Positions 850-58,759 of a stretch of DNA of 64,000 nucleotides are shown piece after piece. The notes under the pieces are model-generated. The model was not told the origin of the DNA. It was given only the letters and a program-made list of their open reading frames with translations, and searched no databases. Position 1 is the stretch's first letter. Each line of letters opens with the position of its first letter. The stretch is taken from positions 1 to 64,000 of the forward strand of contig CANXME010002677.1 of the NCBI GenBank assembly GCA_948144175.1. Reading direction: 5' to 3'. This DNA comes from Closterium sp. NIES-65. Lineage: Eukaryota > Streptophyta > Zygnematophyceae > Desmidiales > Closteriaceae. A program made the position numbers and the translations under genes.

Positions 850-852
850 AGC

Positions 853-864
853 TGGTATCAGAGC
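853..864 (+). other. Primer binding site of A-1 (Met tRNA)
   Basis: TGGTATCAGAGC lies three bases after the LTR end. It is complementary to the 3' end of plant-type methionine tRNA, the usual primer of copia elements. The same 12 bases, or a one-mismatch version, follow the 5' LTR in the other family A copies that keep this end. Confidence 0.9.
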
Positions 865-895
865 TGCGTTATAGTGATCCTCGATATAGGTAGCT

Positions 896-5476: not shown

Positions 5477-5507
5477 TATGGAATGATGGGGATGCAGCCG
5501 GCAGGCT

Positions 5508-5518
5508 GAGGGGGAGTG
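5508..5518 (+). other. Polypurine tract of A-1
   Basis: GAGGGGGAGTG sits immediately before the 3' LTR, where plus-strand DNA synthesis starts in LTR elements. The same tract abuts the 3' LTR of the other complete copies. Confidence 0.85.
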
Positions 5519-6611: not shown

Positions 6612-6699
6612 GCCGCTACGATCTTGGGCTGAAGATTCACCAGCTACCGCCGAGGTGTTGCCCGCCATAGCTACCTATAACGAGGATCACTATAACGCA

Positions 6700-9414: not shown

Positions 9415-9425
9415 CACTCCCCCTC
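9415..9425 (-). other. Polypurine tract of A-3
   Basis: CACTCCCCCTC on the plus strand (purine-rich on the minus strand) directly abuts the 3' LTR. Confidence 0.85.
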
Positions 9426-9456
9426 AGCCTGCCGGCTGCATCCCCATCATTCCATA

Positions 9457-12400
9457 CTAGTTCATGCTCATTCCACTCATGCGCACACAACGCCAATGAG
9501 ACTCATCCGCAAGCCTCTTGGTGAGGAAGTCTGCTGGCTGCTGGTGAGTCTTGATGTAGATCGGATTCACCGTCCCCCTCTTCACCTCCTTACGCAGCCA
9601 GTGCCACTTGATACGCATGTGCTTATTCAGCCCATGAAGCACAGCGTTCCTGGCCATCCCAAGAGCTCCCTTGCTATCACAAAACAGCGGCGTAGCAACC
9701 TTTTGCTCCTGGCCAATCTCCTCCAACAGCCTCCTCAGCCAAATCACCTCCTTCACCCCATGGAACATCGCCATGTACTCTGATTCCACGGAAGAGAGTG
9801 CTGTCTCCGTCTGCTTCTTTGACCTCCAACTAACCGGTCCTCCCCCAACTACGCAGATGTATCCTCCCACAGATGAGGAATCCTCCTTCTCAGAGGCCCA
9901 CGTAGCATCGGTAAAGCAAGTGAGAAAAAGCTTGCCTTCTCCAAGCCTCTCCCCCTTCTCTTTCAGCACCTCAACCCCTTTCTGCTTCACCTGTGCAGAT
10001 GTGGAGTATTGAACTCCAATGCTTGGGTGAGAGTTCAGATACTTCACCACACGCTCAGCTGCATCCACCTGCTCCTCTGATGGATTCTGCACTACCCTAG
10101 CCAGCTGCCCAACCGAGAAAGAGATGTCGGGTCTCGTGTGAACTGCTGCATACAAGAGGCTGCCCACCAAGGACTGAAATTGCTGCTGCTCCTCGGCTTC
10201 AACCCCTTCATCCTCTGCAGCTTTCACAAGCTTGAATTCTGCTGGCAGGGGAGTTGCAACCTTGCGCTCATTCTCAATTCCATACTTCTCCCCAAGCTCC
10301 TTGATGAACTTCTCCTGGTGCAGCTTCAACCACCTGTGATCCAGATCCCTCTCCACGTGCATCCCGAGGTAGTACTTTACCTCCCCAAGGTTCTTGCACT
10401 TGAAGTTCTCCATCAGCTGCTGCTGCACCTTCTGGACCTCCTTCATGCTGCTGCTAAAGAGAAGAATGTCGTCCACATAGACCAGAAACAGCACCAGCTT
10501 CTCCCCCTCCCCCTTGAGAAAGAGGCTCTCATCACAGCTGCTGGTCCTGAATCCCATCTCCTCTAAAACAGCTGCCAACTTCTGGTACCAGCAGCGTGGC
10601 GCCTGCTTCAAGCCGTAGATGGACTTTTTCAGCTTGCACATCCTGCCCGTACCATCCTCATACCCAGGTGGCTGCGTCATGAACACCTCCTCCTCTAAAA
10701 TCCCGTTGAGAAATGCCGTTGATATGTCCATCTGGATAATGAACTTCCCACTAACGGCTGCATCTGCCAACAAGACACGAAGGGTAGGGGGTTTGGCAGT
10801 GGGAGCAAAGATCTCATTGAAGTCCCGCTTCTCCTTCTGCATAAACCCCTTAGCCACCAACCTACTCTTGTAGATGGTGACCTGCCCCTTGTCGTCAGTC
10901 TTGATCCTTAGCACCCACTTGCATTGTACCGCTTTCTTTCCCTCAGGCAGCACCACTAGTTCCCAAGTCCCATTCTCCAGCAGGCTCTGGTATTCAGCAT
11001 CCCTGGAAGCTAGCCATTTGTCCCTATCTGGTCCAGCTAATGCCTCCTCCATGCTAGCTGGTTCCTCTGGTGCAGGGGCAAGAAAACAGTACGCAGGTTG
11101 ATCCTCCTCATCCGGGTCATAGCCATGCGGTAGAATCAGCAATGCCTCCTCGGTCCCAAGCTGCTGCTCCGCTACATCAGCTCCTGCAGTCAGCTTCTTA
11201 GTAGCCATACGGGTACGTCCTGGCCTGGAGACGGGTGTCTCCCATCGCTTCATAATAACACCCTTCGGCTTCTTAGTTTTCCCCTGCTGCTGCTCTCCTC
11301 CCTCGGATCCAGCAGCTCCACTAGTGCTACCGCTAATCTCCACACCATCACCTCCACGAGCAGGTGCCTCCTGCACCTTCTCTTTATCACCACCCTCTGC
11401 AGCTGCCTCCTCTCCCTCCTCCCACACACTAGGAGTCAGGTCCAGCTGCATGGTAATCTGCTCGATCTGCTGGGACACCCTGGCCTCCGGCTGTTTCTCC
11501 CAGCTCCCATACATCATGCCCTCAACAAACTTCACATCCCTGCTGTCAAACAACACACCCTTGGAAGGCTCCCACAGCAGCCATCCCTTGCTCTCAGCAG
11601 CCAGCCCCAAATGCACACACCAGATTGCACTCGCCCCCAACTTACTGCGGTAGGTCTTGGGAACGTGGGCGACTGCCATGCAACCGAACACCCTCAGCAT
11701 GTCCACCGGCGGCTTCCTCCCAAGCCACCTCTCCAACGGCACCCACGAGTCATCCCCAACCTTTGTGAGTACCCTGTTTCTAGCGACGGTAGCGTGCCGA
11801 ACAGCATGGGGCCACATCAAGTTGCCCAGCCCAGATTCTATGAGCAGCGCCCTAGCTGTCTCCAGAATTGTCCGGTTCGCCCGTTCTGCTACACCGTTGG
11901 ACTGTGGGGTGTAAGCCGTGGTCAGCTCCCTCTGGATGCCCTGCTTCTTGAGCCAGGCCGTCATCTCAGCTCCAAGGAACTCACCACCCCGATCTGTCCT
12001 AATCCGCTTCACCACACACTCCGCTTGCTTCTCCACGAACGGCAGCCAATCGTCCCGAATCGTGGAGGCGGCATGATCTTTCTGCTTCAGCGGATACGCC
12101 CACATTAGCCTGCTCCAGTCATCCACTATGGTTAGGAAGTACCGCTCCCCCTTGTGCCCTTGCACCGGCAGCGGCCCCACCAAGTCCATGTGGACCAGCT
12201 CCAACGGCTTTTTGCTCCTGCCAGCCACACTATGGAAGGGGAAACGGGTGAACTTTGAAAGGAGGCAAATTTCACAGTTATCATCGGGTGGTTGTCCGTT
12301 CAGCTTTAAGCCCTTAACGGCTCCATCCTTCTCCAGCTGCTTCAGCAAAGGCATTGCCACATGCCCCAAACGTCGGTGTGCAGTTGCCCAATCTGTCTCC

Positions 12401-14037
12401 CCAGATCTGGCCGACACTTTCACACCAACCCCTCCAACGGCGTTGCACTCCCCCTGGGATGCAGACCCCTCTCCAGCCTGCCCCCCACCGTGCCATGCCA
12501 GCGCCGGCAGCTGCCACATAGATCTGTACACGTCCTTGCTCTCGTGCAGATCCCAAAGCACCCGATTGCCCAGCTTCCCCTTATAAGTGCGAGCCCCATC
12601 CGTGTTGGTGTTCACCCCAGACTTGCCAAGCTTACGGAGGGAGATGAGGTTGGCCTTCAGGTCGGGGACGAGGAGAACGTCGTGCAGCACCACCGGCTTG
12701 CCATCCGCTCCCTTAAATGCAGCTCGTCCCGCACCAGCCACCTTCAACATGTGTCCAGAGGCAGAGCACACCTCATTAATCGGTGCAGCGCGTACGTCGT
12801 CCAGCAGGTCCTTGCGCGGCGTCATTGTCCAAGCAGCGCCTGTGTCCAACACCCAATAGTCCAGGGGGTGCAGCTCTGTTCCAGCCTTAGCAGATGCGTC
12901 TCCTTGCTCCCCCTTGTCTCCCATATGGAAGAATTGGCCCGCGGTGCGCTCCTTCTTCTTCTCCGCACCGCCGTTGCCCTTCGGGTTGTTGTCGGACGAA
13001 TCAGCGACCATGTTGGCGCCGTTTTTCTGGTTCCTCCGCGCGCCGCCATCCTGGTGACGATTCTGGGGGGTCCATCCATCGGGTTTCTTATAGCACAAAA
13101 ACCAGGGGTGCCCTTCCTTCTCACAATACCAGCAACTCCCTTTCATTTTGCCACCAGCACCCGACTTGCCCCCACGTCCAGATTTCGCACCGCGACCCCA
13201 ACCGGTACCTCCTTGTTGGTCGTTGGAGTCGTCGTCTTTCTTTGCACCGCGTCCAGCACCACCGAAGCCACGTCCTTTGCCACGTCGGCTCCCTTGCATC
13301 CCGTAGCCGCTGCTGCCGTCGTCTCCACCCCTCAGTTGGCGGCGACGGAAGTCCTCCTCCAGAATCTTCGTCCGCACCCACTCGAGCGTCCACAAGCTCT
13401 GGTTCTGCGGCAGGCTCAATCCGCTCGTAAATTGAAGCCACGATTCCGGCAGCAGCGAGAGCATCTTCAAGCACTTTGTTTGCTCCGGGTAGGTGATTCC
13501 TGCGGTCGCCAACTTCGCGTAGAGGTCGCGCAATTTGTCCAGGACAGGTTGCACCGGCTCTCCCTCGCTCAGGCGCAACGCGGACAACTCCCTCTCCAGC
13601 ATCAATGTTGCAACAACGGAGGTCGGGGCGTGCAGCTCCTTCAACACCGTCCACGCCTTCGGACCGCACTCAACCTCCGGCAGCAGGTGCATGACGTGGT
13701 GACGCTGGTTCAGCTCCAAACTCTGCGACATCAAGTAGTAGCCAGCCGAGGCGCGCTCGTCCCAATCTTCCTGAAGGGCGGGGTCACTCGGTCTAGGCTC
13801 CTCCCCAATCATTAGTTTCAGCAATCCGATTTGACGGAAATAAAGTTGCATTTTCCAGGCCCAATCATCATAGCCCTCACCATTGAACTTCTCGACGGTG
13901 AAGTTTTTCAGCACCTCCTTGATCAGCGAGCCCTGGCTTGTTCGCGCTCCCCTTGGCGCAGAAACACCAGAATCATGGCTGCCGCTACGATCTTGGGCTG
14001 AAGATTCACCAGCTACCGCCGAGGTGTTGCCCGCCAT
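9457..14037 (-). CDS. Copia gag-pol polyprotein of A-3 (1,526 aa, looks whole)
   Basis: This is one open frame of 1,526 residues starting at the ATG of MAGNTSAVAGESS just inside the primer site. Parts in order are: gag (about 1-300) with basic G/R-rich stretches; a CCHC knuckle CWYCEKEGHPWFLC (302-315) for RNA binding; protease with VLDTGAAW (about 396-402); the integrase zinc region HRRLGH...CEIC (554-591); the integrase core with acidic residues near 618, 682 and 718; reverse transcriptase with YVDDILL near 1187; and RNase H with FTDATWA near 1377 to FCDSKGAL near 1454. Integrase precedes reverse transcriptase, which defines Ty1/copia. Known copia elements express all parts from one frame and cleave them by protease. 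No envelope gene is present. Confidence 0.97.
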   Translation of the reverse strand: MAGNTSAVAGESSAQDRSGSHDSGVSAPRGARTSQGSLIKEVLKNFTVEKFNGEGYDDWAWKMQLYFRQIGLLKLMIGEEPRPSDPALQEDWDERASAGYYLMSQSLELNQRHHVMHLLPEVECGPKAWTVLKELHAPTSVVATLMLERELSALRLSEGEPVQPVLDKLRDLYAKLATAGITYPEQTKCLKMLSLLPESWLQFTSGLSLPQNQSLWTLEWVRTKILEEDFRRRQLRGGDDGSSGYGMQGSRRGKGRGFGGAGRGAKKDDDSNDQQGGTGWGRGAKSGRGGKSGAGGKMKGSCWYCEKEGHPWFLCYKKPDGWTPQNRHQDGGARRNQKNGANMVADSSDNNPKGNGGAEKKKERTAGQFFHMGDKGEQGDASAKAGTELHPLDYWVLDTGAAWTMTPRKDLLDDVRAAPINEVCSASGHMLKVAGAGRAAFKGADGKPVVLHDVLLVPDLKANLISLRKLGKSGVNTNTDGARTYKGKLGNRVLWDLHESKDVYRSMWQLPALAWHGGGQAGEGSASQGECNAVGGVGVKVSARSGETDWATAHRRLGHVAMPLLKQLEKDGAVKGLKLNGQPPDDNCEICLLSKFTRFPFHSVAGRSKKPLELVHMDLVGPLPVQGHKGERYFLTIVDDWSRLMWAYPLKQKDHAASTIRDDWLPFVEKQAECVVKRIRTDRGGEFLGAEMTAWLKKQGIQRELTTAYTPQSNGVAERANRTILETARALLIESGLGNLMWPHAVRHATVARNRVLTKVGDDSWVPLERWLGRKPPVDMLRVFGCMAVAHVPKTYRSKLGASAIWCVHLGLAAESKGWLLWEPSKGVLFDSRDVKFVEGMMYGSWEKQPEARVSQQIEQITMQLDLTPSVWEEGEEAAAEGGDKEKVQEAPARGGDGVEISGSTSGAAGSEGGEQQQGKTKKPKGVIMKRWETPVSRPGRTRMATKKLTAGADVAEQQLGTEEALLILPHGYDPDEEDQPAYCFLAPAPEEPASMEEALAGPDRDKWLASRDAEYQSLLENGTWELVVLPEGKKAVQCKWVLRIKTDDKGQVTIYKSRLVAKGFMQKEKRDFNEIFAPTAKPPTLRVLLADAAVSGKFIIQMDISTAFLNGILEEEVFMTQPPGYEDGTGRMCKLKKSIYGLKQAPRCWYQKLAAVLEEMGFRTSSCDESLFLKGEGEKLVLFLVYVDDILLFSSSMKEVQKVQQQLMENFKCKNLGEVKYYLGMHVERDLDHRWLKLHQEKFIKELGEKYGIENERKVATPLPAEFKLVKAAEDEGVEAEEQQQFQSLVGSLLYAAVHTRPDISFSVGQLARVVQNPSEEQVDAAERVVKYLNSHPSIGVQYSTSAQVKQKGVEVLKEKGERLGEGKLFLTCFTDATWASEKEDSSSVGGYICVVGGGPVSWRSKKQTETALSSVESEYMAMFHGVKEVIWLRRLLEEIGQEQKVATPLFCDSKGALGMARNAVLHGLNKHMRIKWHWLRKEVKRGTVNPIYIKTHQQPADFLTKRLADESHWRCVRMSGMSMN

Positions 14038-14068
14038 AGCTACCTATATCGAGGATCGCTATAACGCA

Positions 14069-14080
14069 GCTCTGATACCA
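14069..14080 (-). other. Primer binding site of A-3
   Basis: GCTCTGATACCA on the plus strand is the complement of the Met-tRNA primer site, three bases from the 5' LTR. Confidence 0.9.
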
Positions 14081-14083
14081 GCT

Positions 14084-15176
14084 TGTTGGTGTAAGGGCCT
14101 AATAAACTCAAGCTATTAAGACTTTATCACACTTAAAACCTCTCCTCGGGGTCACCTCCAAGGGTCCTTGGGTGCCTGGTACAAGACCAGCCCCTATCCT
14201 CGGGTCCGAGTTTGTAGAGAGAGGGATCAAGAGGGACTTAGTAAAAACAGCAAGAGTACCTTGAACGTCGCGCAGCGTATCGTGCAGACCGTCGATCGGA
14301 TTAAGCTGAGAATTTCCTATATCGAAGCTCACTCTAAGAGCTTTAAAATAAGCCAAGTTGCCTCGCGAAAAGTTCTGCCATTACGAAGTTATGGCTCGGA
14401 CAGCGTTAGCCTAGCGTTGGAGTGCTAGCGTACTAGCGTTGACTCGGGTAGCATTCCGCCGTCGTACCGCGTAGAAAGGAAATTCCAGCAAGGAAGGAAT
14501 TCGCTTGAATCAATTTCACTATATTCAGGTACAAACAGAGAAGGAATAAATAGCTCTAGCTAGCAAGGACCTTGGGAATCAACCTGGGAACAACCAGGGA
14601 TGATCCCAAATAATTCCAAGCAACAGAACCAACCTGGCTGGACAAAATAGCAGGTGATAGGTTGGTGAACAACCTCTGGTTCTGTTTTTCCAACCTGGGA
14701 AAACAACAACCAGGTTCAGGTCCTAAAAACAGAACCTGTTTTGTCTTTGCCCAACCAGCCAAATGCTGGTTCCGCTGGTTTCCCCTGGCCCTGTAGCATG
14801 CAGATACAGACAAACAACATCCAACCTTCACCTAAATTGTACCCCTATAGTGCCTGCCCTGCTACACTATAGTCAACCAAACAAAACAGTACAATTTCGA
14901 GTTGGATAGAACTGAATCTGCGCAATCAAGTAAGTTGAACCGCAAAGCTTCCATCTTGGGTTCCTTTGCGAGCTCGTCCTTTCTGCTTGTACTGTTCATA
15001 GCGCGTACAATGTTATGCCGAAGCGCACATTTTGTGAGTACCTGCAAATGCTTCAAGCGAAAATTGCGAAAGCAAACAAACACACAAACATACCATTCAC
15101 ACGCAAATGCATTCGCACACGCATACTCGTACAAACAGACGGCAGGATGTCGTGCAATGTGAATTTGCACCCAACA
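14084..15176 (-). repeat. 5' LTR of A-3
   Basis: It is 1,093 bp, nearly identical to 8322-9414, and followed by the second CAATC copy. Confidence 0.96.
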
Positions 15177-16287
15177 CAATCATCTGCTTGACATTAACGG
15201 CATCGACTTCTTGCAGGAAGGCGACTAAGAGCCTGCTGTACCGTGACTTCGCAACATATGCAGAAAGCAGCTCCTAAAACTTCACTGTGGTAAGGACAAC
15301 ATCAGTTAGAACATGCGACCAAACGCGCTTCATCAGCATCCTGACATTGGTAATGAAAGAGGCGATTTCATGCGACGGAATGACAAGAAATTGCAAGATC
15401 GCGGTGAAGCGAAGGTGCGACGCAATCCCCTTTGCGATGTCGATTTCCAGCTCCTCATCGGAGTCATCTTCAATGAAGGAGTCATAAGGTGCGATTGTAG
15501 CCAGCGCGTTCAGCTTATATTTAATTGATAACTCCGAGCTCCCCGCAGTCACTTCTGCCTCTGATGGCAGATTCTTCTCAATCTTTAACTTGCCGCTCGC
15601 TATTTGCTTGGGTGCAGCATCCGTTCCACCAGTCAGGTTTTCAGGCGGTGGAGCGTCGACCGTAACCCTAACGCGCGACCCTTTCGGCGGCATCGTGCTA
15701 TGATGAGCCAAAACCGGTAGAGGCTCTGATGGATTGAGGTGATGAAAACAATGAGCCGTTGGTCTTAGAACAATACAAATATAGAGCCTGCCATTGTCAT
15801 CGTTAGTGTACATTGTTGCCCAGTGCTCGTAGCACAGGTGCTGGAAAGCCAATGATAGAAATTCGGGGTCATCCCCTTCGATGTAAGGAGAACCAGTGGT
15901 CCTTGGTAGTTGTTCCTGACTGCCAGTGAAGCATCTTGAGAAGCACGCGTAGATCTTGAGCTTAGGTTTTTTTACCAGCGAGGAGCTCCCTAAAGAAGAC
16001 GATATTATGTTCGCCTGATGAACATATAATGTATATAGACTTTTTCGCAGGAATGTAACGGTTACAACGCTGGTGAAATTAAAACCATCAGGTGGCCAGG
16101 CTTCACGCAATGTGCTCGTCAGGCAAGTATGAGGCAGCCATGGCGGCCTCATTCTCATGATTCCTTTCCTCTCTCCCTTAATCACTGATATCCAAGGTAG
16201 TGAGTCAAGGCAGAAATGAAAGCATGTTTTGACTGGATATAATTGACTGCAGTTGACCCGCTTTCTTTTGCGTGAGATTTTCATCAC
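15177..16287 (-). pseudogene. Unrecognised coding-like region, upstream part
   Basis: The minus-strand frame of 337 residues runs from 16287 to a TAG at 15274-15276, then stays open for 32 more codons to the edge of A-3. A plausible internal start is the ATG at 15693 (MPPKGSRVRVTVDAPPPENL). It is followed by a charged stretch (IEKNLPSEAE) and an acidic patch, FIEDDSDEELEIDIAKG. No signal peptide, membrane segment or known catalytic motif is evident. The frame resumes in register at 8317 on the other side of A-3, so the two blocks were contiguous before insertion. The in-frame stops argue for a decayed gene. A LINE ORF1 (a LINE endonuclease fragment lies further along the same strand) or a host gene are the main options. 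I do not assign a function. Confidence 0.45.
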
Positions 16288-16520: not shown

Positions 16521-17940
16521 TTAACCAATGGTAAGAAATGGGTCGTTGCAGTAGCCGTGGGTAAATATTCTGGTCAGTAAAGGGCTAGGTTGGGCGAGTA
16601 GGATGTCATGGAGTTGGGCTATGGGGCGGGCAAGGGCGTCGGCGATGTTCGGTGCACTGTTTTTGTATTTCACGGTGTAGTGAAAGATTCCAGATAGTCT
16701 AACCATCATATCTGTCGCAGGTTGAGATTCAGTTGGGCGCGAAGGTACTGTATTATAAAGATTGACCCTGTCAGTTAGCACCGCCAGATTTTCACTGCAT
16801 GCACGATCTCGGGCATTTCACGGTAGTGTATCAAATAGTTGTGCTCGGGCGGGTCGAGCTTGCGGGACTCGTACGCGATTGGATGGAGGTTCTTTGTCGA
16901 AGTCCTGCAACAGTACGGCTCCGACGGCGATGTTGCTTGCGCCGGTGACGAGATCGAATGGACGGTGAAGATCAGTGATGTGCAGGACCGGCAGCGAGCA
17001 CAGTGAAGGCAACTTCCTCTTTCTACCCCCACGTGTACTCAACCCCCTCCTCAATAAGTTGGTCAGCGAGATAGTAAGCCTCGCCGTGTGAGTGACAAAC
17101 CGACGAACGTGGTTGACGAACCCAAAAAAACTATGCATCTAGGCCAAGTTTGTCAGCGGTTGCTCTCAATCATCACGATTTGTTTCGGGTCTATTTACAC
17201 AGGTTGGCCGGAATTAGGTGTCCCAAAATCTCGAGTCTGTCCCACACTTAGAAGCTTTCGTCAGTAGCTGGTTCTCAATTAAAACATGTCCTCTACGAAA
17301 CATGTATCAAAGCGGTTGTACAGCGTTGCGACATATCTTTTAGCGTTGGACGCTATACAAATTCGATGTCCTTTGTTTTGTCGGGGCTGTTAATCAGTAT
17401 GTCATCAAAGTAGACGATGTCGCGCTTAACTAGAACCGGGCGGAACGCCTCGTCCATCGTTATCTCAAAAGTAGCCGGTGCGTGGTTTATTCCAAATATC
17501 ATTACCATATTCAAATGGACCATAGTTGGTGCGGAAGGCGGGTTTTAGATAGTCGGGTGGGTTGACTCGCATTTGGTGGTAACCCCCTCTAAGGTTGATG
17601 TTGCAGTTTACGAAGTTGGTCGATCAGTTTGTCGGCTCATGGAATAGGGCAACAAGACTTGATAGCAATCCTGTTCAGTGCACGGTAGTCGATGATCCGC
17701 AGAATCACCCGTCCATTTTCGCTGTGAATAGTATGGACATGACAAATTGTGATGAACTCGTGCGGATCATTTTTTTTATCGACAAGGTAATCCGGCTGCT
17801 TCCGAAGTTCGTCCAGTTAGGGTTGGGTCAATCTGAATTGTCGCTGAACTGTCGGTATTCTCCCGGTTCTACCTGTATGCTGTGGTCGTGCGGTCGTTGA
17901 GGTGGCAGTCCCTCCAGAAAGTAATCGGGGAAGGTTTTTC
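16521..17940 (-). mobile_element. Decayed Ty3/gypsy pol remnant
   Basis: Minus-strand frames carry typical Ty3/gypsy signatures in the expected order. They are a reverse transcriptase block with VYFDDILI near 17420, the connection segment MHSFFGFVNHVRRF at 17138, RNase H beginning HPIAYESRKLDPPEHNY near 16880, and its end YKNSAPNIADALARP near 16640. The frame is broken many times, no LTRs are recognisable, and protein similarity rather than DNA repeats is what remains. It looks old. Its orientation is opposite to the methyltransferase-bearing retroelement at 19369, so the two are probably unrelated. Confidence 0.8.
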
Positions 17941-18652: not shown

Positions 18653-18985
18653 CTCCCCTGCCGCGCTCATGCTTGGGCTCCCTGACCCATACTGCAGTAC
18701 TCCACGGAGAACAATCGTCCTCGACATGCACCCTACACACAGCACGCTGTCACCGCACCAGCCGTGCAGAAGGCAAGACACCTATTGCTGCACCTTGTCG
18801 TCACCGTCACCGATGTCGGCCAGGCGGACTTGGCCGATCACGACAGAGCACCGGTTGAATGCCGGAAAGGGCAGCGCCTTCGTCAGAACGTCGGCTGGCT
18901 GTTCGGTGGTCGGGATGTACTTCAGCACGAATTTCCCGCGCCTCACCATGTCTTGCAGCCAGGCGTAGCGTCGTGACCCGTTTTT
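17990..18985 (-). mobile_element. Copia family B fragment B-1 (3' end)
   Basis: This is a family B LTR (about 17990-18652) followed on its right by the RNase H tail of a copia polyprotein on the minus strand (about 18785-18985: GKFVLKYIPTTEQPADVLTKALP). It is homologous to 60449-61740. It is an incomplete and broken fossil. Both outer edges are approximate. Confidence 0.75.
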
Positions 18986-19368
18986 TATCTGTGCGTAGGT
19001 GCTCTAGATATAAACTCGTGACTTGAAGGATAATAGGAGAAAACAGTAGCAAAGATTACATTAGAGCGGCAAAAAGGCCGAAACGAGCAAAACTGAATTG
19101 AGACTCGGCTGGCGAAATGGTACCGTTGGGGCAACGGTAACCAGCAGCAAATACTTAAGCAAGTAGGTAGTGTAGGAGCCGTGCTAGCGTGTTTGTTTTC
19201 ACACCTAGGCTTGAACTTTCAAACTCGACTGTAACTTATAAGCGAGAGAAGCCAATCAGCGCAAGCACTCTACTTGAAGCATCTTCCCAAGGAAACAGCC
19301 AGCCGAGCTAGGGTTTGTGCCTCAAGCTATCTAGGGCCTGGGCACTTTAAACAAACACGCAAGCAGTA
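18986..19368. other. Possible leader or LTR of the methyltransferase-bearing element
   Basis: This is about 380 bp of AT-richer sequence between the end of B-1 and the first gag-side frame at 19369. No LTR termini, primer site or second copy is visible in the window, so its role is not established. Confidence 0.3.
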
Positions 19369-20800
19369 TTGCCGATGTATAGCAGAGACTTAGTACGCAC
19401 TCGACTGTGGAACGACACTGGCAAACCTAAGCCTACTACAGGGTGGCGCGCAGACGCCGTCGCCGCAAGCAGGAAGCTAGGCTCATCTAGTCAGACAACC
19501 GATTTACCGAGATATAGAACCCCACATCAGCGAGACCGCGCGGCAGCCGACAGCATGGACCGAGATCATACTGCTGCCTCCGACCCAGGGGATACGCCGT
19601 GTGACCCGCGATGGACCGAAGAAGTACGGGCGAGGTGGCGGAACCAAGAAGAGGCGACACCGCTGATCGGAATACCCGGCATGACGATGAAGAGAGACAG
19701 ACCAGACGCGCGATGGACCCCGAACGTGGGGCCGCCGGCTGAGACCTTGACAACCAGCGCGCTAGTGGTGAGTGGGGACACGCAGTTACCTGAAGACCAG
19801 GACGAATCAACCGCAAATCGAGAAGGGCGCTGGAAGGCTACGAATCTGCCGTAAATGCAGGTAGCGGAACGCTACACCGGCATTCCAGGCGTGGGACCAA
19901 GTTTGAAAACCTACCTCATGCAGATGGAGACGGTGCAGTACTGCTGGGAACGAGACGGATACGACCCAGCGGAGTTCTTCAGGCAGATGGTGGGAACTCT
20001 ATCAGGAAAAATGGAGACGTTTTATTGGATGACGCAAGACAAAATCCTAGAAGAGGTGGCGGAAGGAGAGATTGCTAACCTCACGGCTCGGTTTATCCTG
20101 TTGCTGCGGAAAGAGTTCGTCGGACAAACGAAGGCGCGAGTGGAGGAGTTCCGGGACTTCCGCCGAAAGAAGGGCGACTCTCTTCTGGCCCATTACTGCA
20201 GACTCCGAGAATTGGCCGAAGATCTGGAGAGTAAAGACGAGAGACTGCTAGTAAGGAAGTTCGTGCGGGGTCTGGAAGAAGAGTTTAAGGGAGCCGTGCG
20301 GAGCACCATGTATGGCATCGATGCGGACACTACATTCAAGGAGGTGTATAAACTGGCTAAGAAGACGGAACAAGCGCAGCGCCTGCTGGATCTGAAAGAC
20401 ACGGAAGGGAGGAGTCGAGCGAAGACAAGCTGAGCAGCCGTAGCCGTACCGGAGTCCACTGCAGGAAGCAGTATTCGCACGGACCCACGGATCTGCCATA
20501 CATGCGGGGAACATGGGCATCTGAAACGAGACTGTCCGAAGGCGCCAGTATGCGAGCAGTGCGGCAAAAGAGGGCATCGGAAGGAGGAATGTTACAGTCG
20601 GCCGAGAGAGTCGCTGGGGCCAACTAGGGAAGAACTACAAGCGGAGGTGCGACGATTACAAAGCCGGCTGGAGCAGCTGCCCACTCCGAAGGAAGTGAAG
20701 ATATGGGCGCTACTGGCGTACGAGGAGATTGAGGAAGAGGAAGAAGGAGAGGATGACTATAAGAGGGAGTAAGCCGTGATGGCGTATCCTAGGAAGCGAG
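19369..20800 (+). pseudogene. Gag region of the methyltransferase-bearing retroelement
   Basis: The region starts with a hydrophilic leader rich in R, D and T. The capsid-like core follows (from about 19855: MQVAERYTGIPGVG), with a Retrotrans_gag-like helical segment (VEEFRDFRRKKGDSLLAHYC near 20140) and VRKFVRGLEEEFKGAV near 20260. Two zinc knuckles come next: CHTCGEHGHLKRDC (about 20495) and CEQCGKRGHRKEEC (about 20550). Gag packages the element RNA in virus-like particles. The region is broken and treated as a fossil. The core is confidently retroelement gag; the leader is less certain. Confidence 0.8.
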
Positions 20801-20931
20801 ACGATATTCGACTACGCCCGCGGGCCAGTCAGTCGCAAGATAGTGACGCGACCTGCGGACCCCGCCAACGGAGCAGCCAAGCAGAACGGAATTGACATTC
20901 GGAGATCCGGAGACACCTGAACGAGAGGCTC

Positions 20932-21480
20932 GTGTGTCAGGCATCGGTGTTGATCGCGGAGAAGGGAAGCATCACTGTGGGAGGACTGCAGGTGAAGCAG
21001 GCTATCATTGATACGGAAGCGCATCATGTGCTGATTGGGAAAGGTCTCGCGAAGCAACTGAAGCTGGATAAGGCAGGAAAGACCGTGGAGCGCGGGATAC
21101 TGTTGATGACCGCCGAATGGGGGGAGCCGAAATGGATGCCGAAAACAAGGCGGCCGGTAGAGGTGGTGCTTCTGCCGGGAAATGAGAAGGAGTGTTCTAT
21201 TCGTCTGCAATGCGGGGTATCCGAGTCGGAGGATTATGATGTGCTAGTAGGGATGGAGCTCATATACCGTGTTGGAGCCACCATATGTACGTGGCAGGAG
21301 AAGGTCTTGTACCGCGTGCAGTACTGGGACCCCGAGAATTCCGCAGGCACGTTGCCGGTGCGGTTCGTAAGGCAAGAGCCCCGGGAAGCCTACCAGGTGA
21401 GGAAACAGGACCTGACAGAGGAATTGGACGAATGGCCCTGGGAGAGGGACGGAGAGGAGCATGAAAGGAGGATCGAGAGG
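20932..21480 (+). pseudogene. Retropepsin-like region of the same element
   Basis: A frame running from 20932 contains ITVGGLQVKQAIIDT followed by HHVLIGKGLAKQL, the layout of a retroviral-type aspartic protease flap and active-site strand. It continues with YDVLVGMELIYRVGATICTW, like the second conserved strand (hydrophobic-G-x-D/E-x-hydrophobic). It lies between gag and the methyltransferase domain, the normal place for protease. It is called from motif layout only, and as a fossil. Confidence 0.6.
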
Positions 21481-22427
21481 TTAACCTCGGGGCAGGTCAG
21501 CCGAGTATGGGCGTTCGAGGGATCCCTCCGCATCGTGAACTATATGGAGGAATCGGCAGTGGGCTGGCCGCCGCGTTGAGGGCGGGATGTACCGTCAAGT
21601 GGAACGCGACCCAGTAGTGAGGAAGATGGCCCACCACCACGCCTTGCTGCTCGTTGAAGGGTATCCGGACCAGCTGTGGGAGAACGCCATCCCGCCAGAA
21701 TCTGAAACGGGGATACATGACGTCAGGGAGATCACTGAGCAAGTGCTAGATGACTGAGGGCAAGTGGATCTGGTCAGAGCGGGATGCGAATGCCAAGGAT
21801 ATTCGAGGGCGGGAGAAGGAAGGGGAATGGAAGACCCGCGGGGTGACTCTTTCCAGGACCTCCAGCGCGTCTTGGATATGATCCAGAGGCGTCAAGGGGA
21901 GGTTTTGTACATACTGGAGAACGTGGACTTGGGCGGGGATAAAAGAGAGCCCGCGAAGAGAGCGTTCGCAAAGATATCAGAAGTGTTGGGAAGGGGAGTG
22001 CCAGCAAATGCCGCTCAGCTGGAATCCAGAGCACACCGACCAAGGAGATATTGGCAGAATTGGATGTCGACAGGCGCGCTGCGGTATTCGCTGGCACAGA
22101 TGCAACGGCCCGAGCCCCGCTTGTTGAGCGATAACTTGCAGCCGAATCGCATGCCCGCGCCTGTCACGTGTGCCGATCACTCGACACAGTACCAATGCAA
22201 CGAGCCTGGGAAACCTCGACAAGCAATGCCCACCCTGGTGTCGTACGCGGACGCCCGCGGGTTCGTCATGGAAGGGGAACTGCCTGGTCTGGGGATGATC
22301 TACGATGTTAGGAAGGGGAGACGGGAGCAACCGACGGTAAACGAGAGGGAAGCAGCTATGGGGCACCTATGGGGGGCTACCGCACACCCCGAGGTGACAG
22401 AACAGCAGCGCCGCGCGGCCTTGGGAA
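21480..22427 (+). pseudogene. Cytosine-5 DNA methyltransferase domain inside the retroelement
   Basis: Motifs appear in the order of C5 methyltransferases. A motif I-like segment RVWAFEGSLRIVNYMEES lies near 21500. Segments with VVRKMAHHHALLLVEGYP (near 21620) and VDLVRAG lead to the motif IV area CQGYSRAGEGRG (21791). DPRGDSFQDLQRVLDMI leads to motif VI YILENVDL (about 21910). Then come RAHRPRRYWQNW (motif VIII-like, about 22028), a variable target-recognition stretch, QPTVNEREAAMGHLWG (motif IX-like, about 22329) and VTEQQRRAALG (motif X-like). The domain stops there because A-4's LTR inserted. The family methylates cytosine using S-adenosylmethionine. What it does for the element (for example self-methylation) is inference. 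The copy is broken. Confidence 0.72.
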
Positions 22428-23523
22428 TGTTGGGTCCAAATTCACATTGCACGACATCCTGCCGTCTGTTTGTACGAGTATGCGTGTGCGAATGCATTTG
22501 CGTGTGAATGGTATGTTCGTGTGTTTGTTTGTTTTCGCAATTTTTGCTTGAAGCATTTGCAGGTACTCGCACAATGTGCGCTTTGGCACAACGTTGTACG
22601 CGCTATCAAACAGTACAAGCAGAAAGGACGAGCTCGCAAAGGAACCCAAGATGGAAGCTTTGCGGTTCGGCTTACTTGATTGCGCAGATTCAGTTTTATC
22701 CAACTCGAAATTGTACTGTTTTGTTTGGTTGACTATAGTGTAGCAGGGCAGGCACTATAGAGGTACAATTTAGGTGAAGGATGGATGTTGTTTGTCTGTA
22801 TCTGCTTGCTACAGGGCCAGGGGAAACCAGCGGAACCAGCATTTGGCTGGTTGGGCAAAGACAAAAACAGGTTCTGTTTTTAGGACCTGAACCTGGTTGT
22901 TGTTTTCCCAGGTTGGAAAAACAGAACCAGAGGTTGTTCACCAACCTACCACCTGCTGTTTTGTCCAGCCAGGTTGGTTCTGTTGCTTGGAATTATTTGG
23001 GATCATCCCTGGCTGTTCCCAAGTTGATTCCCAAGGTCCTTGCTAGCTAGAGCTATTTATTCCTTACTCTGTTTGTACCTGAATATAGTGAAATTGATTC
23101 AAGCGAATTCCTTCCTTGCTGGAATTTCCTTTTTACGCGGTGCGAGGGCGGAATGCTACCCGAGTCAACGCTAGTACGCTAGCACTCCAACGCTAGGCAA
23201 ACGCTGTCCGAGCCATAACTTCGTAATGGCAGAACTTTTCGCGAGGCAACTAGGTTCATTTTAAAGCTCTTGGAGCGAGCTTCGATATAGCAAATTCTCA
23301 GCTTAATCCGATCAACGGTCTGCACAATACGCTGCGCGACGTTCAAGGTACTCTTGCTGTTTTGACTAAGTCCCTCTTGATCCCTCTCTCTATAAACTCG
23401 GACCCGAGGATAGGGGCTGGTCTTGTACTAGGCACCCAAGGACCCTTGGAGGTGACCCCGAGGAGAGGTTTTAAGTTTGATAAAGTCTTAATAGCTTGAG
23501 TTTATTAGGCCCTTACACCAACA
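22428..23523 (+). repeat. 5' LTR of A-4
   Basis: It is 1,096 bp from TGTTGGGTCC to CCTTACACCAACA, and more diverged from the A-1/A-3 LTR than those are from each other. Confidence 0.95.
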
Positions 23524-23526
23524 AGC

Positions 23527-23538
23527 TGGTATCAGAGC
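23527..23538 (+). other. Primer binding site of A-4
   Basis: TGGTATCAGAGC, three bases after the LTR end. Confidence 0.9.
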
Positions 23539-23569
23539 TGCGTTATAGTGATCCTCGTTATAGGTAGCT

Positions 23570-25655
23570 ATGGCGGGCAACACCTCGGCGGTAGCTGGTG
23601 AATCTTCAGCCCAAGATCGTAGCAGCAGCCAAGATTCTGGTGTTTCTGCGCCAAGGGGAGCGCGAACAAGCCAGGGCTCGCTGATCAAGGAGGTGCTGAA
23701 AAACTTCACCGTCGAGAAGTTCAATGGTGAGGGCTATGATGATTGGGCCTGGAAAATGCAACTTTATTTCCGTCAGATCGGTTTGCTGAAACTAATGATT
23801 GGGGAGGAGCCTAGACCGAGTGACCCCGCCCTTCAGGAAGATTGGGACGAGCGCGCCTCGGCTGGCTACTACTTGATGTCGTAGAGTTTGGAGCTGAACC
23901 AGCGTCACCACGTCATGCATCTGCTGGCGGAGGTTGAGTGCGGTCCGAAGGCGTGGACGGTGTTGAAGGAGCTGCACGCCCCTACCTCCGTCGCTGCGAC
24001 GCTCATGATGGAGAGGGAGCTGTCCGCGTTGCGCCTAAGCGAGGGAGAGCCGGTGCAACCCATCCTGGACAAGATGCGTGATCTCTACGCGAAGCTGGCG
24101 ATCGCGGGAACCACCTACCCGGAGCAGACCAAGTGCCTGAAGATGCTCTCGCTGCTGCCGGAATCTTGGCTTCAATTCACGAGTGGATTGAGCCTGCCGC
24201 AGAACCAGAGCTTGAGGACGCTCGAATGGGTGCGGACGAAGATTCTGGAGGAGGACTTCCGTCGCCGCCAACTGAGGGGTGGAGACGACGGCAGCAGCGG
24301 CTACGGGATGCAAGGGAGCCGACGTGGCAAAGGACGTGGCTTCGGTGGTGCTGGACGCGGTGCAAAGAAAGACGACGACTCCAACGACCAACAAGGAGGT
24401 ACCGGTTGGGGTCGCGGTGCGAAATCTGGACGTGGGGGCAAGTCGGGTGCTGGTGGCAAAATGAAAGGGAGTTGCTGGTATTGTGAGAAGGAAGGGCACC
24501 CCTGGTTTTTGTGCTATAAGAAACCCGATGGATGGACCCCCCAGAATCGTCACCAGGATGGCGGCGCGCGGAGGAACCAGAAAAACGGCGCCAACATGGT
24601 CGCTGATTCGTCCGACAACAACCCGAAGGGCAACGGCGGTGCGGAGAAGAAGAAGGAGCGCACCACGGGCCAATTCTTCCATGTGGGAGACAAGGGGGAG
24701 CAAGGAGACGCATCTGCTAAGGTTGGAGCAGAGCTGCACCCTCTGGACTATTGGGTGTTGGACATAGGCGCTGCTTGGACAATGACGCCGCGCAAGGACC
24801 TGCTGAACGACGTACGCGCTGCACCGATTAACGAGGTGTGCTCTGCCTCTGGACACATGTTGAAGGTGGCTGGTGCGGGACGAGCTGCATTTAAGGGAGC
24901 GGATGGCAAGCCGGTGGTGCTGCACGACGTTCTCCTCACCCCCAACCTGAAGGCCAACCTTATCTCCCTCCGTAAGCTTGGCAAGGCTGGGGTGAACACC
25001 AACATTGATGGGGCTCGCACTTATATGGGGAAGCTGGGCAATCGGGTGCTTTGGGATCTGCACGAGAGCAAGGACGTGTACAGATCTATGTGGCAGCTGC
25101 CGGCGCTGGCGTGGCACGGTGGGGGGCAGGCTAGAGAGGGGTCTGCATCCCAGGGGGAGTGCAACGCCGTTGGAGGGGTTGGTGTGAAAGTGTCGGCCAG
25201 ATCTGGGGAGACGGATTGGGCAACTGCACACCGGCGTTTGGGGCATGTGGCAATGCCTTTGCTGAAGCAGCTGGAGAAGGATGGAGCCGTTAAGGGCTTG
25301 AAGCTGAACGGACAAGCACCCGATGATAACTGTGAAATTTGCATCATTTCAAAGTTCACCCGTTTCCCCTTCCATAGTGTGGCTGGCAGGAGCAAAAAGC
25401 CATCCAAGCTGGTCCAAATGGACTTGGTGGGGCCGCTGCCGGTGCAAGGGCACAAGGGGGAGCGGTACTTCCTAACCATAGTGGATGACTGGAGCAGGCT
25501 AATATGAGTGTATCCGCTGAAGCAGAAAGATCATGCCGCCTCGACGATTCGAGATGATGGGCTGCCGTTCGTGGAGAAGCAAGCGGAGGTGTGGTGAAGC
25601 GGATTAGGACAGATCGGGGTGGTGAGTTCCTTGGAGCTGAGATGACGGCCTGGCT
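23570..25655 (+). pseudogene. Gag, protease and partial integrase of A-4 (broken)
   Basis: This has the same order as the A-3 polyprotein: gag with CCHC knuckle, protease, then the integrase zinc region and part of the integrase core. It ends at A-5. It has a few breaks and is a fossil. Confidence 0.92.
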
Positions 25656-26748
25656 TGTTGGTGTAAGGGCCTAATAAACTCAAGCTATTAAGACTTTATC
25701 ACACTTAAAACCTCTCCTCGGGGTCACCTCCAAGGGTCCTTGGGTGCCTGGTACAAGACCAGCCCCTATCCTCGGGTCCGAGTTTGTAGAGAGAGGGATC
25801 AAGAGGGACTTAGTCAAAACAGCAAGAGTACCTTGAACGTCGCGCAGCGTATCGTGCAGACCGTCGATCGGATTAAGCTGAGAATTTCCTATATCGAAGC
25901 TCACTCTAAGAGCTTTAAAATAAGCCAAGTTGCCTCGCGAAAAGTTCTGCCATTACGAAGTTATGGCTCGGACAGCGTTAGCCTAGCGTTGGAGTGCTAG
26001 CGTACTAGCGTTGACTCGGGTAGCATTCCGCCGTCGCACCGCGTAGAAAAGAAATTCCAGCAAGGAAGGAATTCGCTTGAATCAATTTCACTATATTCAG
26101 GTACAAACAGAGAAGGAATAAATAGCTCTAGCTAGCAAGGACCTTGGGAATCAACCTGGGAACAACCAGGGATGATCCCAAATAATTCCAAGCAACAGAA
26201 CCAACCTGGCTGGACAAAATAGCAGGTGATAGGTTGGTGAACAACCTCTGGTTCTGTTTTTCCAACCTGGGAAAACAACAACCAGGTTCAGGTCCTAAAA
26301 ACAGAACCTGTTTTGTCTTTGCCCAACCAGCCAAATGCTGGTTCCGCTGGTTTCCCCTGGCCCTGTAGCATGCAGATACAGACAAACAACATCCAACCTT
26401 CACCTAAATTGTACCCCTATAGTGCCTGCCCTGCTACACTATAGTCAACCAAACAAAACAGTACAATTTCGAGTTGGATAGAACTGAATCTGCGCAATCA
26501 AGTAAGTTGAACCGCAAAGCTTCCATCTTGGGTTCCTTTGCGAGCTCGTCCTTTCTGCTTGTACTGTTCATAGCGCGTACAATGTTATGCCGAAGCGCAC
26601 ATTTTGCGAGTACCTGCAAATGCTTCAAGCGAAAATTGCGAAAGCAAACAAACACACAAACATACCATTCACACGCAAATGCATTCGCACACGCATACTC
26701 GTACAAACAGACGGCAGGATGTCGTGCAATGTGAATTTGCACCCAACA
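25656..26748 (-). repeat. 3' LTR of A-5
   Basis: It is 1,093 bp with intact termini and is closest to the A-3 LTR type at diagnostic positions. Confidence 0.95.
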
Positions 26749-26759
26749 CACTCCCCCTC
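26749..26759 (-). other. Polypurine tract of A-5
   Basis: CACTCCCCCTC on plus, abutting the 3' LTR. Confidence 0.8.
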
Positions 26760-26790
26760 AGCCTGCCGGCTGCATCCCCATCATTCCATA

Positions 26791-29700
26791 CTAGTTCATG
26801 CTCATTCCACTCATGCGCACACAACGCCAATGAGGCTCATCCGCAAGCCTCTTGGTGAGGAAGTCTGCTGGCTGCTGGTGAGTCTTGATGTAGATCGGAT
26901 TCACCGTCCCCCTCTTCACCTCCTTACGCAGCCAGTGCCACTTGATACGCATGTGCTTATTCAGCCCATGAAGCACAGCGTTCCTGGCCATCCCAAGAGC
27001 TCCCTTGCTATCACAAAACAGCGGCGTAGCAACCTTTTGCTCCTGGCCAATCTCCTCCAACAGCCTCCTCAGCCAAATCACCTCCTTCACCCCATGGAAC
27101 ATCGCCATGTACTCTGATTCCACGGAAGAGAGTGCTGTCTCCGTCTGCTTCTTTGACCTCCAACTAACCGGTCCTCCCCCAACTACGCAGATGTATCCTC
27201 CCACAGATGAGGAATCCTCCTTCTCAGAGGCCCACGTAGCATCAGTAAAGCAAGTAAGAAAAAGCTTGCCTTCTCCAAGCCTCTCCCCCTTCTCTTTCAG
27301 CACCTCAACCCCTTTCTGCTTCACCTGTGCAGATGCGGAGTATTGAACTCCAATGCTTGGGTGAGAGTTCAGATACTTCACCACACGCTCAGCTGCATCC
27401 ACCTGATCCTCTGATGGATTCTGCACTACCCTAGCCAGCTGCCCAACCGAGAAAGAGATGTCGGGCCTCGTGTGAACTGCTGCATACAAGAGGCTGCCCA
27501 CCAAGGACTGAAATTGGCTGCTGCTCCTCAGGCTTCAACCCCTTCATCCTCTGCAGCTTTCACAAGCTTGAATTCTGCTGGCAGGGGAGTTGCAACCTTG
27601 CGCTCATTCTCAATTCCGTACTTCTCCCCAAGCTCCTTGATGAACTTCTCCTGGTGCAGCTTCAACCACCTGTGATCCAGATCCCTCTCCACGTGCATCC
27701 CGAGGTAGTACTTTACCTCCCCAAGGTTCTTGCACTTGAAGTTCTCCATCAGCTGCTGCTGCACCTTCTGGATCTCCTTCATGCTGCTGCTAAAGAGAAG
27801 AATGTCGTCCACATAGACCAGAAACAGCACCAGCTTCTCCCCCTCCCCCTTGAGAAAGAGGCTCTCATCACAGCTGCTGGTCCTGAATCCCATCTCCTCT
27901 AAAACAGCTGCCAACTTCTGGTACCAGCAGCGTGGCGCCTGCTTCAAGCCGTAGATAGGACTTTTTCAGCTTGCACACCCTGCCCGTACCATCCTCATAC
28001 CCAGGTGGCTGCGTCATGAACACCTCCTCCTCTAAAATCCCGTTGAGAAATGCCGTTGATATGTCCATCTGGATAATGAACTTCCCACTAACGGCTGCAT
28101 CTACCAACAAGACACGAAGGGTAGGGGGTTTGGCAGTGGGAGCAAAGATCTCATTGAAGTCCCGCTTCTCCTTCTGCATAAACCCCTTAGCCACCAACCT
28201 ACTCTTGTAGATGGTGACCTGCCCCTTGTCGTCAGTCTTGATCCTTAGCACCCACTTGCATTGTACCGCTTTCTTTCCCTCAGGCAGCACCACTAGTTCC
28301 CAAGTCCCATTCTCCAGCAGGCTCTGGTACTCAGCATCCCTGGAAGCTAGCCATTTGTCCCTATCTGGTCCAGCTAATGCCTCCTCCATGCTAGCTGGTT
28401 CCTCTGGTGCAGGGGCAAGAAAACAGTACGCAGGTTGATCCTCCTCATCCGGGTCATAGCCATGCGGTAGAATCAGCAATGCCTCCTCGGTCCCAAGCTG
28501 CTGCTCCGCTACATCAGCTCCTGCAGTCAGCTTCTTAGTAGCCATACGGGTACGTCCTGGCCTGGAGACGGGTGTCTCCCATCCCTTCATAATAACACCC
28601 TTCGGCTTCTTAGTTTTCCCCTGCTGCTGCTCTCCTCCCTCGGATCCAGCAGCTCCACTAGTGCTACCGCTAATCTCCACACCATTGCTTTCACCAGGCA
28701 GGTGCCTCCTGCACCTTCTCTTCAGCACCACCCTTCTGCAGCTGCCTCCTCTCCCTCCTCCCACACACTAGGAGTCAGGTCCAGCTGCATGGTAATCTGC
28801 TCCATCTGCTGGGACACCCTGGCCTCCGGCTGTTTCTCCCAGCTCCCATACATCATGCCCTCAACAAACTTCACATCCCTGCTGTCAAACAACACACCCT
28901 TGGAAGGCTCCCACAGCAGCCATCCCTTGCTCTCAGCAGCCAGCCCCAAATGCACACACCAGATTGCACTCGCCCCCAACTTACTGCGGTAGGTCTTGGG
29001 GAACGTGGGCGACTGCCATGCAACCGAACACCCTCAGCATGTCCACCGGCGGCTTCCTCCCAAGCCACCTCTCCAACGGCACCCACGAGTCATCCCCAAC
29101 CTTTGTGAGTACCCTGTTCCTAGCGACGGTAGCGTGCCGAACAGCATGGGGCCACATGCAGTTGCCCAGCCCAGATTCTATGAGCAGCGCCCTAGCTGTC
29201 TCCAGAATTGTCCGGTTCGCCCGTTCTGCTACACCGTTAGGACTGTGGGGTGTAAGCCGTGGTCAGCTCCCTCTGGATGCCCTGCTTCTTGAGCCAGGCC
29301 GTCATGTCAGTTCCAAGGAACTCACCACCCCGATCTGTCCTAATCCGCTTCACCACACACTCCGCTTGCTTCTCCACGAACGGCAGCCAATCGTCCCGAA
29401 TCGTGGAGGCGGCGTGATCTTTCTGCTTCAGCGGATACGCCCACATTAGCCTGCTCCAGTCATCCACTATGGTTAGGAAGTACCGCTCCCCCTTGTGCCC
29501 TTGCACCGGCAGCGGCCCCACCAAGTCCATGTGGACCAGCTCCAACGGCTTTTTGCTCCTGCCAGCCACACTATGGAAGGGGAAACGGGTGAACTTTGAA
29601 AGGAGGCAAATTTCACAGTTATCATCGGGTGGTTGTCCGTTCAGCTTTAAGCCCTTAACGGCTCCATCCTTCTCCAGCTGCTTCAGCAAAGGCATTGCCA

Positions 29701-31381: not shown

Positions 31382-31412
31382 AGCTACCTATATCGAGGAT
31401 CACTATAACGCA

Positions 31413-31424
31413 GCTCTGATACCA
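31413..31424 (-). other. Primer binding site of A-5
   Basis: GCTCTGATACCA on plus, next to the 5' LTR. Confidence 0.88.
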
Positions 31425-31427
31425 GCT

Positions 31428-46413: not shown

Positions 46414-46416
46414 AGC

Positions 46417-46428
46417 TGGTATCAGAGC
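46417..46428 (+). other. Primer binding site of A-11
   Basis: TGGTATCAGAGC, three bases after the 5' LTR. Confidence 0.9.
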
Positions 46429-46459
46429 TGCGTTATAGTGATCCTCGATATAGGTAGCT

Positions 46460-58756: not shown

Positions 58757-58759
58757 GCT

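Follow-up and report, generated by a model that had tools for sequence, protein, structure and literature searches.

A Gypsy-type retrotransposon with an internal Dnmt3-class methyltransferase in Closterium and a possible route of integration from joined cDNA ends

The stretch of DNA analysed here, the window, comprises 64,000 nucleotides (nt) of the alga Closterium sp. NIES-65 (contig CANXME010002677.1) and carries on its forward strand, at 18974-22427, the broken 5' part of a Ty3/Gypsy-type retroelement with gag, protease and a Dnmt3-class cytosine-5 DNA methyltransferase. The element starts near 18974 and not at 19369, where a first reading of the window (hereafter the original prediction) had placed it. 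Its 5' repeat, which is R-U5-like and is called A1 (18974..19350), was recognized by homology to two relatives in the same genome, L029 and L031, the latter with an A repeat beginning TGTCACG, and its 3' limit is given by the primer-binding site; its left end has decayed to TGAC where intact copies have TGTC. Within A1 lies a 15-nt putative self-primer (19182..19196) that is complementary to the primer-binding site with one mismatch allowed and may mark the 5' end of the transcript, and about 30 nt upstream of it is a stretch judged by eye to be AT-rich. The primer-binding site (19351..19365) directly follows the A repeat, begins with ACA instead of TGG and holds the same place relative to the end of A in 12 genome copies. 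The gag region (19435..20760, its 3' limit approximate and set by eye) is broken by stops and contains the two predicted CCHC knuckles, at 20494 and 20551. Searches by tblastn with the intact copies L016 and L021 give 42-43% identity over gag and protease, and this homology spans 19435-21471 in a single frame. The retropepsin-like aspartic protease region (20932..21471), also predicted, is weak by Pfam (Asp_protease_2, E 0.0046, under the cut-off) but 48-63% identical to the proteases of the 10-kb genome copies.

The methyltransferase domain (21537..22427) was identified by Pfam (PF00145), tblastn and alignment. It opens at 21537 in a frame other than that of gag and protease, its catalytic motif IV (ECQ) lies at 21788-21796, and a third frame carries the remainder to 22426. 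The profile search that the original prediction had proposed places PF00145 above the cut-off of 22 for the 21764-22504 frame (22.7 bits, E 7.6e-5), and a protein search with 21764-22426 gave eight matches with E no greater than 1; every one is named Closterium, and the top match has 74% identity (E 1.9e-103). A Copia long terminal repeat (LTR; 22428..23523, forward strand), recognized by self-BLAST of the window and by its sequence, belongs to a family of which the window holds several near-complete copies; because it starts at 22428, the methyltransferase element has lost all that lay downstream, as well as most of its last methyltransferase motif. Thus, the methyltransferase motifs first noticed here are real, but they are split between two frames and the last is mostly missing. 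When reverse transcriptase (RT)-integrase pieces of two genome copies were compared with the rest of the window, they found only unrelated matches of 26-29% identity, to Copia integrases and one RNase H scrap, which rules out the remaining part of the element elsewhere in the window. Our analyses confirm that a methyltransferase-bearing element is present in the window, well above chance, and this copy reads as the dead 5' half of a Ty3/Gypsy-type retrotransposon, so that relatives elsewhere in the genome must serve as guides to its biology. One further contig holds a segment (G000:C1521:24747-25537) that matches window 19369-20159 at 100% identity (791 bp), reflecting either a recent duplication or assembly redundancy.

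Searching the genome assembly (874 Mb, 2,400 contigs) gave at least 123 scored PF00145 matches, a lower bound from 902 candidates, many of them in open frames of 1,000-2,300 amino acids. Twenty copies of about 10 kb were fetched, mostly picked for long open frames, so that intact copies are over-represented, and ten of them (L009-L016, L023 and L024) hold single frames of 2,134-2,321 amino acids. Pfam scans, in pieces, of L014, L015, L016 and L021 reveal the order zinc knuckles, aspartic protease (under the cut-off in some of the four), DNA_methylase, RVT_1, RNase H, H2C2 and rve, and intact copies therefore carry one Gag-protease-Dnmt3-RT-RNaseH-integrase frame. In these four copies Pfam matched the rve integrase but no tyrosine recombinase, and no chromodomain after the integrase at E up to 0.1. 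In L029, whose subfamily is close to that of the window copy, the methyltransferase is likewise followed by RT, RNase H and integrase. An RT search of the assembly, with the best 104 of 12,899 candidates scored, was examined for rows with no PF00145 row nearby; the first ten such rows all have the methyltransferase upstream, in two pieces in L061 and, in L065, as only 60 aligned residues from the end of the enzyme. In this family, the methyltransferase before RT is the normal order. These results partly support the original prediction: an internal cytosine-5 methyltransferase in a retroelement is borne out by the single frames in 10 of the 20 copies and by the enzyme's place inside Gag-Pol in the four scanned, while the supposedly unusual placement of the enzyme before any RT is not upheld, since RT, RNase H and integrase follow in the intact copies found by the proposed genome search and a Klebsormidium protein has the same order.

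The enzyme appears to be of the Dnmt3 class. A profile of 20 sequences searched against PDB matched DNMT3A/B/C first (DNMT3A, E 9e-18), then 4onj, which we take to be a plant DRM (3.7e-10), HhaI (2e-8) and DRM2 (2.4e-8), with no DNMT1 among the best 60 of 63 rows. The AlphaFold model of the enzyme (predicted local distance difference test, pLDDT, 83.6; predicted template modelling score, pTM, 0.85) gave at least 50 Foldseek matches, and all those listed are DNMT3 entries. Ratios of nonsynonymous to synonymous substitution (dN/dS) are 0.091 for L015-L025 and 0.064 for L021-L004, of which L004 holds a stop; these two pairs carry enough changes and lie below saturation. Other values are 0.076 for L017-L002 (dS 1.10) and 0.078 for L015-L002, a pair close to saturation (dS 2.26); the copies in the pairs L015-L018 (0.98) and L010-L009 (0.36) are very close and have too few changes, and the remaining pairs are saturated or nearly so. 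Cys97, Glu139 and HRxRR (motifs IV, VI and VIII) are invariant in the 20 aligned sequences, with EHL for ENV in L010. The sequence PCQ is near-invariant in motif IV. All 20 aligned sequences have ECQ instead of PCQ, as do five of eight metagenome proteins with the same domain order (the other three gave no motif hit); PCQ is kept in Klebsormidium nitens.

The repeats of these elements are not arranged as two flanking LTRs, so that the retroelement of the original prediction stands while its description as an ordinary LTR element does not. By self-comparison, 13 of the 20 fetched loci have the layout A-ORF-B-A-B (ORF, open reading frame). The A repeat spans about 430-660 bp, or 835 bp in L026; B spans about 111-283 bp, except in L009, which has a shortened B1 (85 bp). 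The other seven comprise A-ORF-B in L011, L012 and L022, A-partial A-ORF-B in L024, a copy with no second B (L021), one broken on the left (L028) and one in which no repeats were found (L014). The elements end in TGTC...GACA, of the TG..CA type. Both ends were read for 23 distinct insertions, and 21 of these have exact 4-bp target duplications on their flanks. These 23 correspond to 26 places, the same flanks being shared by L010/L020, L017/L027 and C1801/C2199; L014, L021, L028, L029 and C1154, each with an end missing or unread, lie outside the count. A 5-bp duplication was never found in the 17 rows so tested. Target duplications of 4-6 bp are canonical for Ty3/Gypsy elements, and the ends and duplications seen here agree with this. 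The canonical pair of identical LTRs, with outer ends that serve as integration ends, is absent. Insertions with a duplication include 13 of the form A-ORF-B-A-B (C1801/C2199 is a 14th of that form), three A-ORF-B monomers (L012, L022 and C180), the A-partial A-ORF-B copy L024 and three of A-B alone (C1720, C1976 and C595). They also include a tandem array, (A-ORF-B)x3-A-B, on C995 at about 456,147-478,005 (L051-L054), with a 7,064-bp period, the duplication AACA and the palindrome GCGACAGCTGTCGC.

The two junctions between the repeats, written here B/A and A/B, behave differently. The B/A junction is constant in length at all 24 places read, some of them duplicates: 22 have GACAGCTGTC and two (L025 and L042) share the same single substitution. 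Its palindrome, CCGACAGCTGTCA, matches the element ends in the form B-GACA/GC/TGTC-A, with CCGACA/GC/TGTCA lying inside the B-A repeat. The junction is thus the right end plus GC plus the left end, which is what an integrase removing two nucleotides after CA would cut out. The A/B junction, however, differs among copies. Among 20 distinct junctions, as we classified them, five are flush (L018, L023, L028, L033 and L046), seven have one or two extra A or T (+A, AA or T; L009, L010, L013, L017, L019, L025 and L053), two keep polypurine nucleotides (L032 and L016, the latter also lacking 6 nt of A) and six show a deletion, filler or leader read-through (L015, L026, L039, L042, L045 and L047); the boundary was borrowed from a close relative for L009, L028, L032, L045, L046 and L047. 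Even L013, L018, L015 and L032, which are at least 96% alike over the repeats, have different A/B junctions, and we therefore reject A/B as an inherited sequence.

Each junction partner adjoins a candidate priming site. In the copies whose A/B junctions were read, the polypurine tract immediately upstream of B has the sequence GAGGGGGCA, or GAAGGGGGCA in the case of L019. Directly 3' of A, the site beginning with ACA, not TGG, is complementary to a stretch within A, 93-160 nt upstream; it matches this upstream self sequence in a comparison made within the element. A 12-nt complement with at most one mismatch was found at the boundary of A and leader in eight of eight copies tested; among 3,200 control windows placed deeper in the leader, 3 had one. 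The putative self-primer pairs over 12-19 nt in 12 copies and in the window, with G-T pairs and one mismatch allowed, and primer and primer site differ between subfamilies with both sides changing together. Self-priming is known in Tf1/sushi, Tcn1 and TAR elements (PMC6317226).

The order of the domains, the layout of the repeats, the ends with their target duplications, the complementarity of the primer, the polypurine tract and the contrast of a variable A/B with a constant B/A are all read from the genomic sequence. We consider their best reading, with a probability of roughly three in four, to be that the ends of the complementary DNA (cDNA) are joined, in circles or concatemers, and that the joined molecule is opened by the integrase at the internal palindrome and inserted with a 4-bp duplication. 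The transcript would start in repeat A, and its first 12-19 nt would anneal just downstream of A and prime the minus strand, as in Tf1, with the plus strand starting at the polypurine tract just before B. Since the primer site lies after A and the polypurine tract before B, the cDNA would start with B and end with A; it would read B-A-ORF-B-A, the true LTR would be B-A, and the cDNA ends, lacking TG and CA, would be distinct from the integration ends. Joining of two such ends would give circles or concatemers with a fresh A/B junction. Given this cDNA, the variable A/B would be the scar of the joined ends and the constant B/A the encoded cutting site. The DDE integrase would cut CCGACA/GC/TGTCA within the B-A repeat on both strands and insert the product with a 4-bp target duplication; a joined molecule opened at one B/A would yield A-ORF-B-A-B, and A-ORF-B, as well as A-B (directly or by recombination), would arise as by-products. 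Consistent with this reading, no 5' A is preceded by B in a table of 44 rows from one subfamily (best 40 of 148 candidates scored), so that insertion at cDNA ends was not seen there. The integrases of foamy virus (PFV) and human immunodeficiency virus 1 (HIV-1) are reported to cut the palindrome of the two-LTR junction in vitro (PMC1180852, PMC1905944), and that of foamy virus left two-base overhangs (PMC1180852). Retrotransposon DNA methyltransferases can methylate CG de novo, according to de Mendoza and colleagues, whose discussion also suggests methylation of cDNA (PMC5890265). By extension of that 2018 suggestion, we would guess that the Closterium enzyme may methylate the joined or circular cDNA of its own element.

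Several observations weigh against this reading. A two-LTR circle has two equal B/A sites, so the mirror product A-B-A-ORF-B would be expected as commonly as A-ORF-B-A-B, yet it is nearly absent, with one partial case (L024) against 14 distinct A-ORF-B-A-B insertions; the shortage could result if such products collapse when their two A copies recombine, or if the two LTRs differ within the complex. HIV-1 integrase mostly left four-base overhangs at the palindrome in vitro (PMC1905944), and a two-base pattern is assumed here. Both the circle intermediate and the transcript 5' ends are predictions from genomic sequence. Individual copies also deviate: L011 has no target duplication, that of C1801/C2199 (one insertion) matches at three of four bases (CAGC against CAGT), L021 has neither a second B nor a matching duplication, the left end of L028 is rearranged, repeats of the A and B type were not seen in L014 and L029, and the fragments L030 and L031 gave no primer pair. 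Finally, activity of the enzyme cannot be assumed, because motif IV reads ECQ instead of PCQ.

Among the alternatives, replication templated as in DIRS and Ngaro elements, in which the cDNA would be made directly as A-ORF-B-A-B with the internal B-A templating the ends and the integrase inserting a linear molecule, survives best but seems unlikely to us. It accounts for the great excess of A-ORF-B-A-B over A-B-A-ORF-B, and its layout is that of PAT/Ngaro (PMC4157794) and the one reported for Klebsormidium (PMC5890265). However, A/B would then be inherited, while the close copies L013, L018, L015 and L032 differ there; A/B falls at the self-primer site and the polypurine tract; and the four scanned copies have an rve integrase, with 4-bp duplications, in place of a tyrosine recombinase. 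It is also rather improbable that linear cDNAs are ligated end to end into concatemers instead of circles, from which the integrase excises a unit between two non-adjacent B/A sites. This would give the same products and junctions, and the C995 array speaks for it, but that array is also obtainable by unequal recombination between A repeats, and the scheme needs two distant cuts with one site skipped, which is less simple than cutting a circle once. We find it very hard to maintain that the element is an ordinary LTR retrotransposon with A as the LTR, the second B (B2) a later duplication and the A/B differences post-insertion decay. Where both A copies are present, in 13 loci, they share 97.3-99.8% identity, as in an LTR pair, but the target duplications flank the start of A1 and the end of B2 and not the end of A2, which already contradicts an ordinary LTR pair and rules it out; moreover, the same layout recurs across several subfamilies, in which the enzyme shares 48-56% identity with its L015 counterpart, and differences gather at A/B with no length change at B/A. 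That the methyltransferase is a host gene merely beside a gag fragment, as the broken window copy with no visible continuity might by itself allow, is refuted by the continuous Gag-protease-methyltransferase-RT-RNaseH-integrase frames of the genome copies, with the enzyme also in 10 of 10 further RT relatives (one partly) and with RT and methyltransferase trees that agree on the main groups.

The closest known system is KnitGypsy-Dnmt3 of Klebsormidium nitens, described in the 2018 paper of de Mendoza and colleagues (PMC5890265), which the original prediction had cited and which fits. The K. nitens protein KFL_009030040 (P0034) is 41% identical over 78% of the methyltransferase region (E 7.1e-45) and has the order protease-methyltransferase-RT-RNaseH-integrase of the Closterium copies. 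By homology, domain order and the RT and methyltransferase trees, the Closterium element is a member of the KnitGypsy-Dnmt3 family: a Dnmt3-class enzyme lies inside Gag-Pol, a Gypsy RT-RNaseH-integrase follows in the same frame (in four genome copies; missing in the window copy), and the layout is A-ORF-B-A-B. The two also share a Gypsy-type polyprotein under purifying selection and repeats that the Fig. 4 legend of that paper describes as DIRS-arranged. They differ in the host alga, in motif IV (PCQ in P0034, ECQ in Closterium) and in the at least 123 scored methyltransferase matches of the Closterium assembly. The terms "target site" and "circular" are absent from the main text of PMC5890265, so that ends and integration route are not treated there. 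SymbioDIRS-Dnmt3 and PAT/Ngaro elements resemble ours in the split direct repeats A-ORF-B-A-B, and some carry a DNA methyltransferase (PMC5890265, PMC4157794), but they use a tyrosine recombinase, whereas the integrase of the Closterium element is of the DDE (rve) type, its ends are TG..CA and its target duplications measure 4 bp. Split-direct-repeat retrotransposons with unrelated integration machinery repeatedly carry DNA methyltransferases, of the adenine type in DIRS and Dnmt3 in K. nitens and Closterium (PMC5890265, PMC4157794). Tf1/sushi and Tcn1 share a primer site complementary to an upstream stretch, the would-be 5' end of the transcript (PMC6317226); unlike Tf1/sushi, the Closterium element has no chromodomain in the four copies scanned, and its integration ends lie within the B-A repeat and not at the predicted cDNA ends. 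The likeness to cleavage of the two-LTR junction in foamy virus and HIV-1 is an integrase cutting a palindrome (PMC1180852, PMC1905944), which in Closterium would be a putative activity; the viral palindrome forms where cDNA ends meet, whereas that of Closterium is encoded inside the repeat and its cDNA ends would meet elsewhere. Our literature search, with most subscription journals and supplements outside its coverage, found no description of this integration route; the ends, the priming, the junction evidence and the implied route were not found described before, and the enzyme, host group and repeat layout were already known from one paper (PMC5890265).

Searches with the enzyme and RT also found many metagenome proteins and two partial proteins of Marchantia polymorpha (P0038 and P0079) with the order protease-methyltransferase-RT, motif IV not being found in P0038; the family thus seems to reach a land plant. 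A second architecture, type II, has the order RT-RNaseH-methyltransferase-integrase, often with a PHD finger, and occurs in metagenomes and in the chlorophytes Haematococcus and Pleodorina (P0022-P0026, P0040-P0044, P0060 and P0076). The methyltransferase of P0060 and P0076 is unseen by Pfam but matches the profile built here (E 1.1e-100 and 5.7e-62). Among 138 RT-bearing polyproteins, 28 are type I, with the methyltransferase before RT, 59 are type II, with it between RNase H and integrase, and 51 gave no methyltransferase hit. Unrooted RT and methyltransferase trees of 37 proteins both split type I from type II at 100/99, and on an RT tree of 141 polyproteins the presence or absence of the methyltransferase needs five changes, against at least 34 in 200 shuffles. 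Scans of viral contigs with P0044 and P0025 gave no match.

Much of the rest of the window is occupied by the Copia family, with LTRs of about 1.09 kb (1-6612, 8322-15177, 22428-25655, 25653-32519, 45321-52171 and 53000-59853); by self-BLAST these copies are about 95-99% identical to each other, and some are nested. Degenerate tandem repeats of about 37 bp adjoin Copia LTRs at 43422-44489, 52404-53000 and 59861-60452, with self-match offsets that are often multiples of 37. On the reverse strand, 16905-17138 is an RNase H scrap from an unrelated Gypsy element, 26-27% identical to the methyltransferase-element family.

Two-LTR circles are usually regarded as dead ends. The question of their use by integrase has been debated on the basis of junction palindromes cleaved by the foamy virus and HIV-1 enzymes (PMC1180852, PMC1905944). 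The Closterium genome seems to keep many separate outcomes of a joined-cDNA route with readable junction scars, which makes the question testable by reading copies, and such a route could explain why an element with a DDE integrase has DIRS-like repeats. Through the database relatives, the range of Gypsy polyproteins that carry a methyltransferase now includes Marchantia and the chlorophytes Haematococcus and Pleodorina, in the latter two with another enzyme position and a PHD finger. We lean towards the view that this is a Gypsy-type lineage unable to integrate from its cDNA ends, for which joined cDNA, as two-LTR circles or an equivalent, is the working substrate, and whose integrase acts much like a restriction enzyme on an LTR-internal palindrome; the carried Dnmt3 may serve that stage by marking circular DNA. 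A DNA methyltransferase encoded by the element itself would have a task at the stage of joined or circular cDNA.

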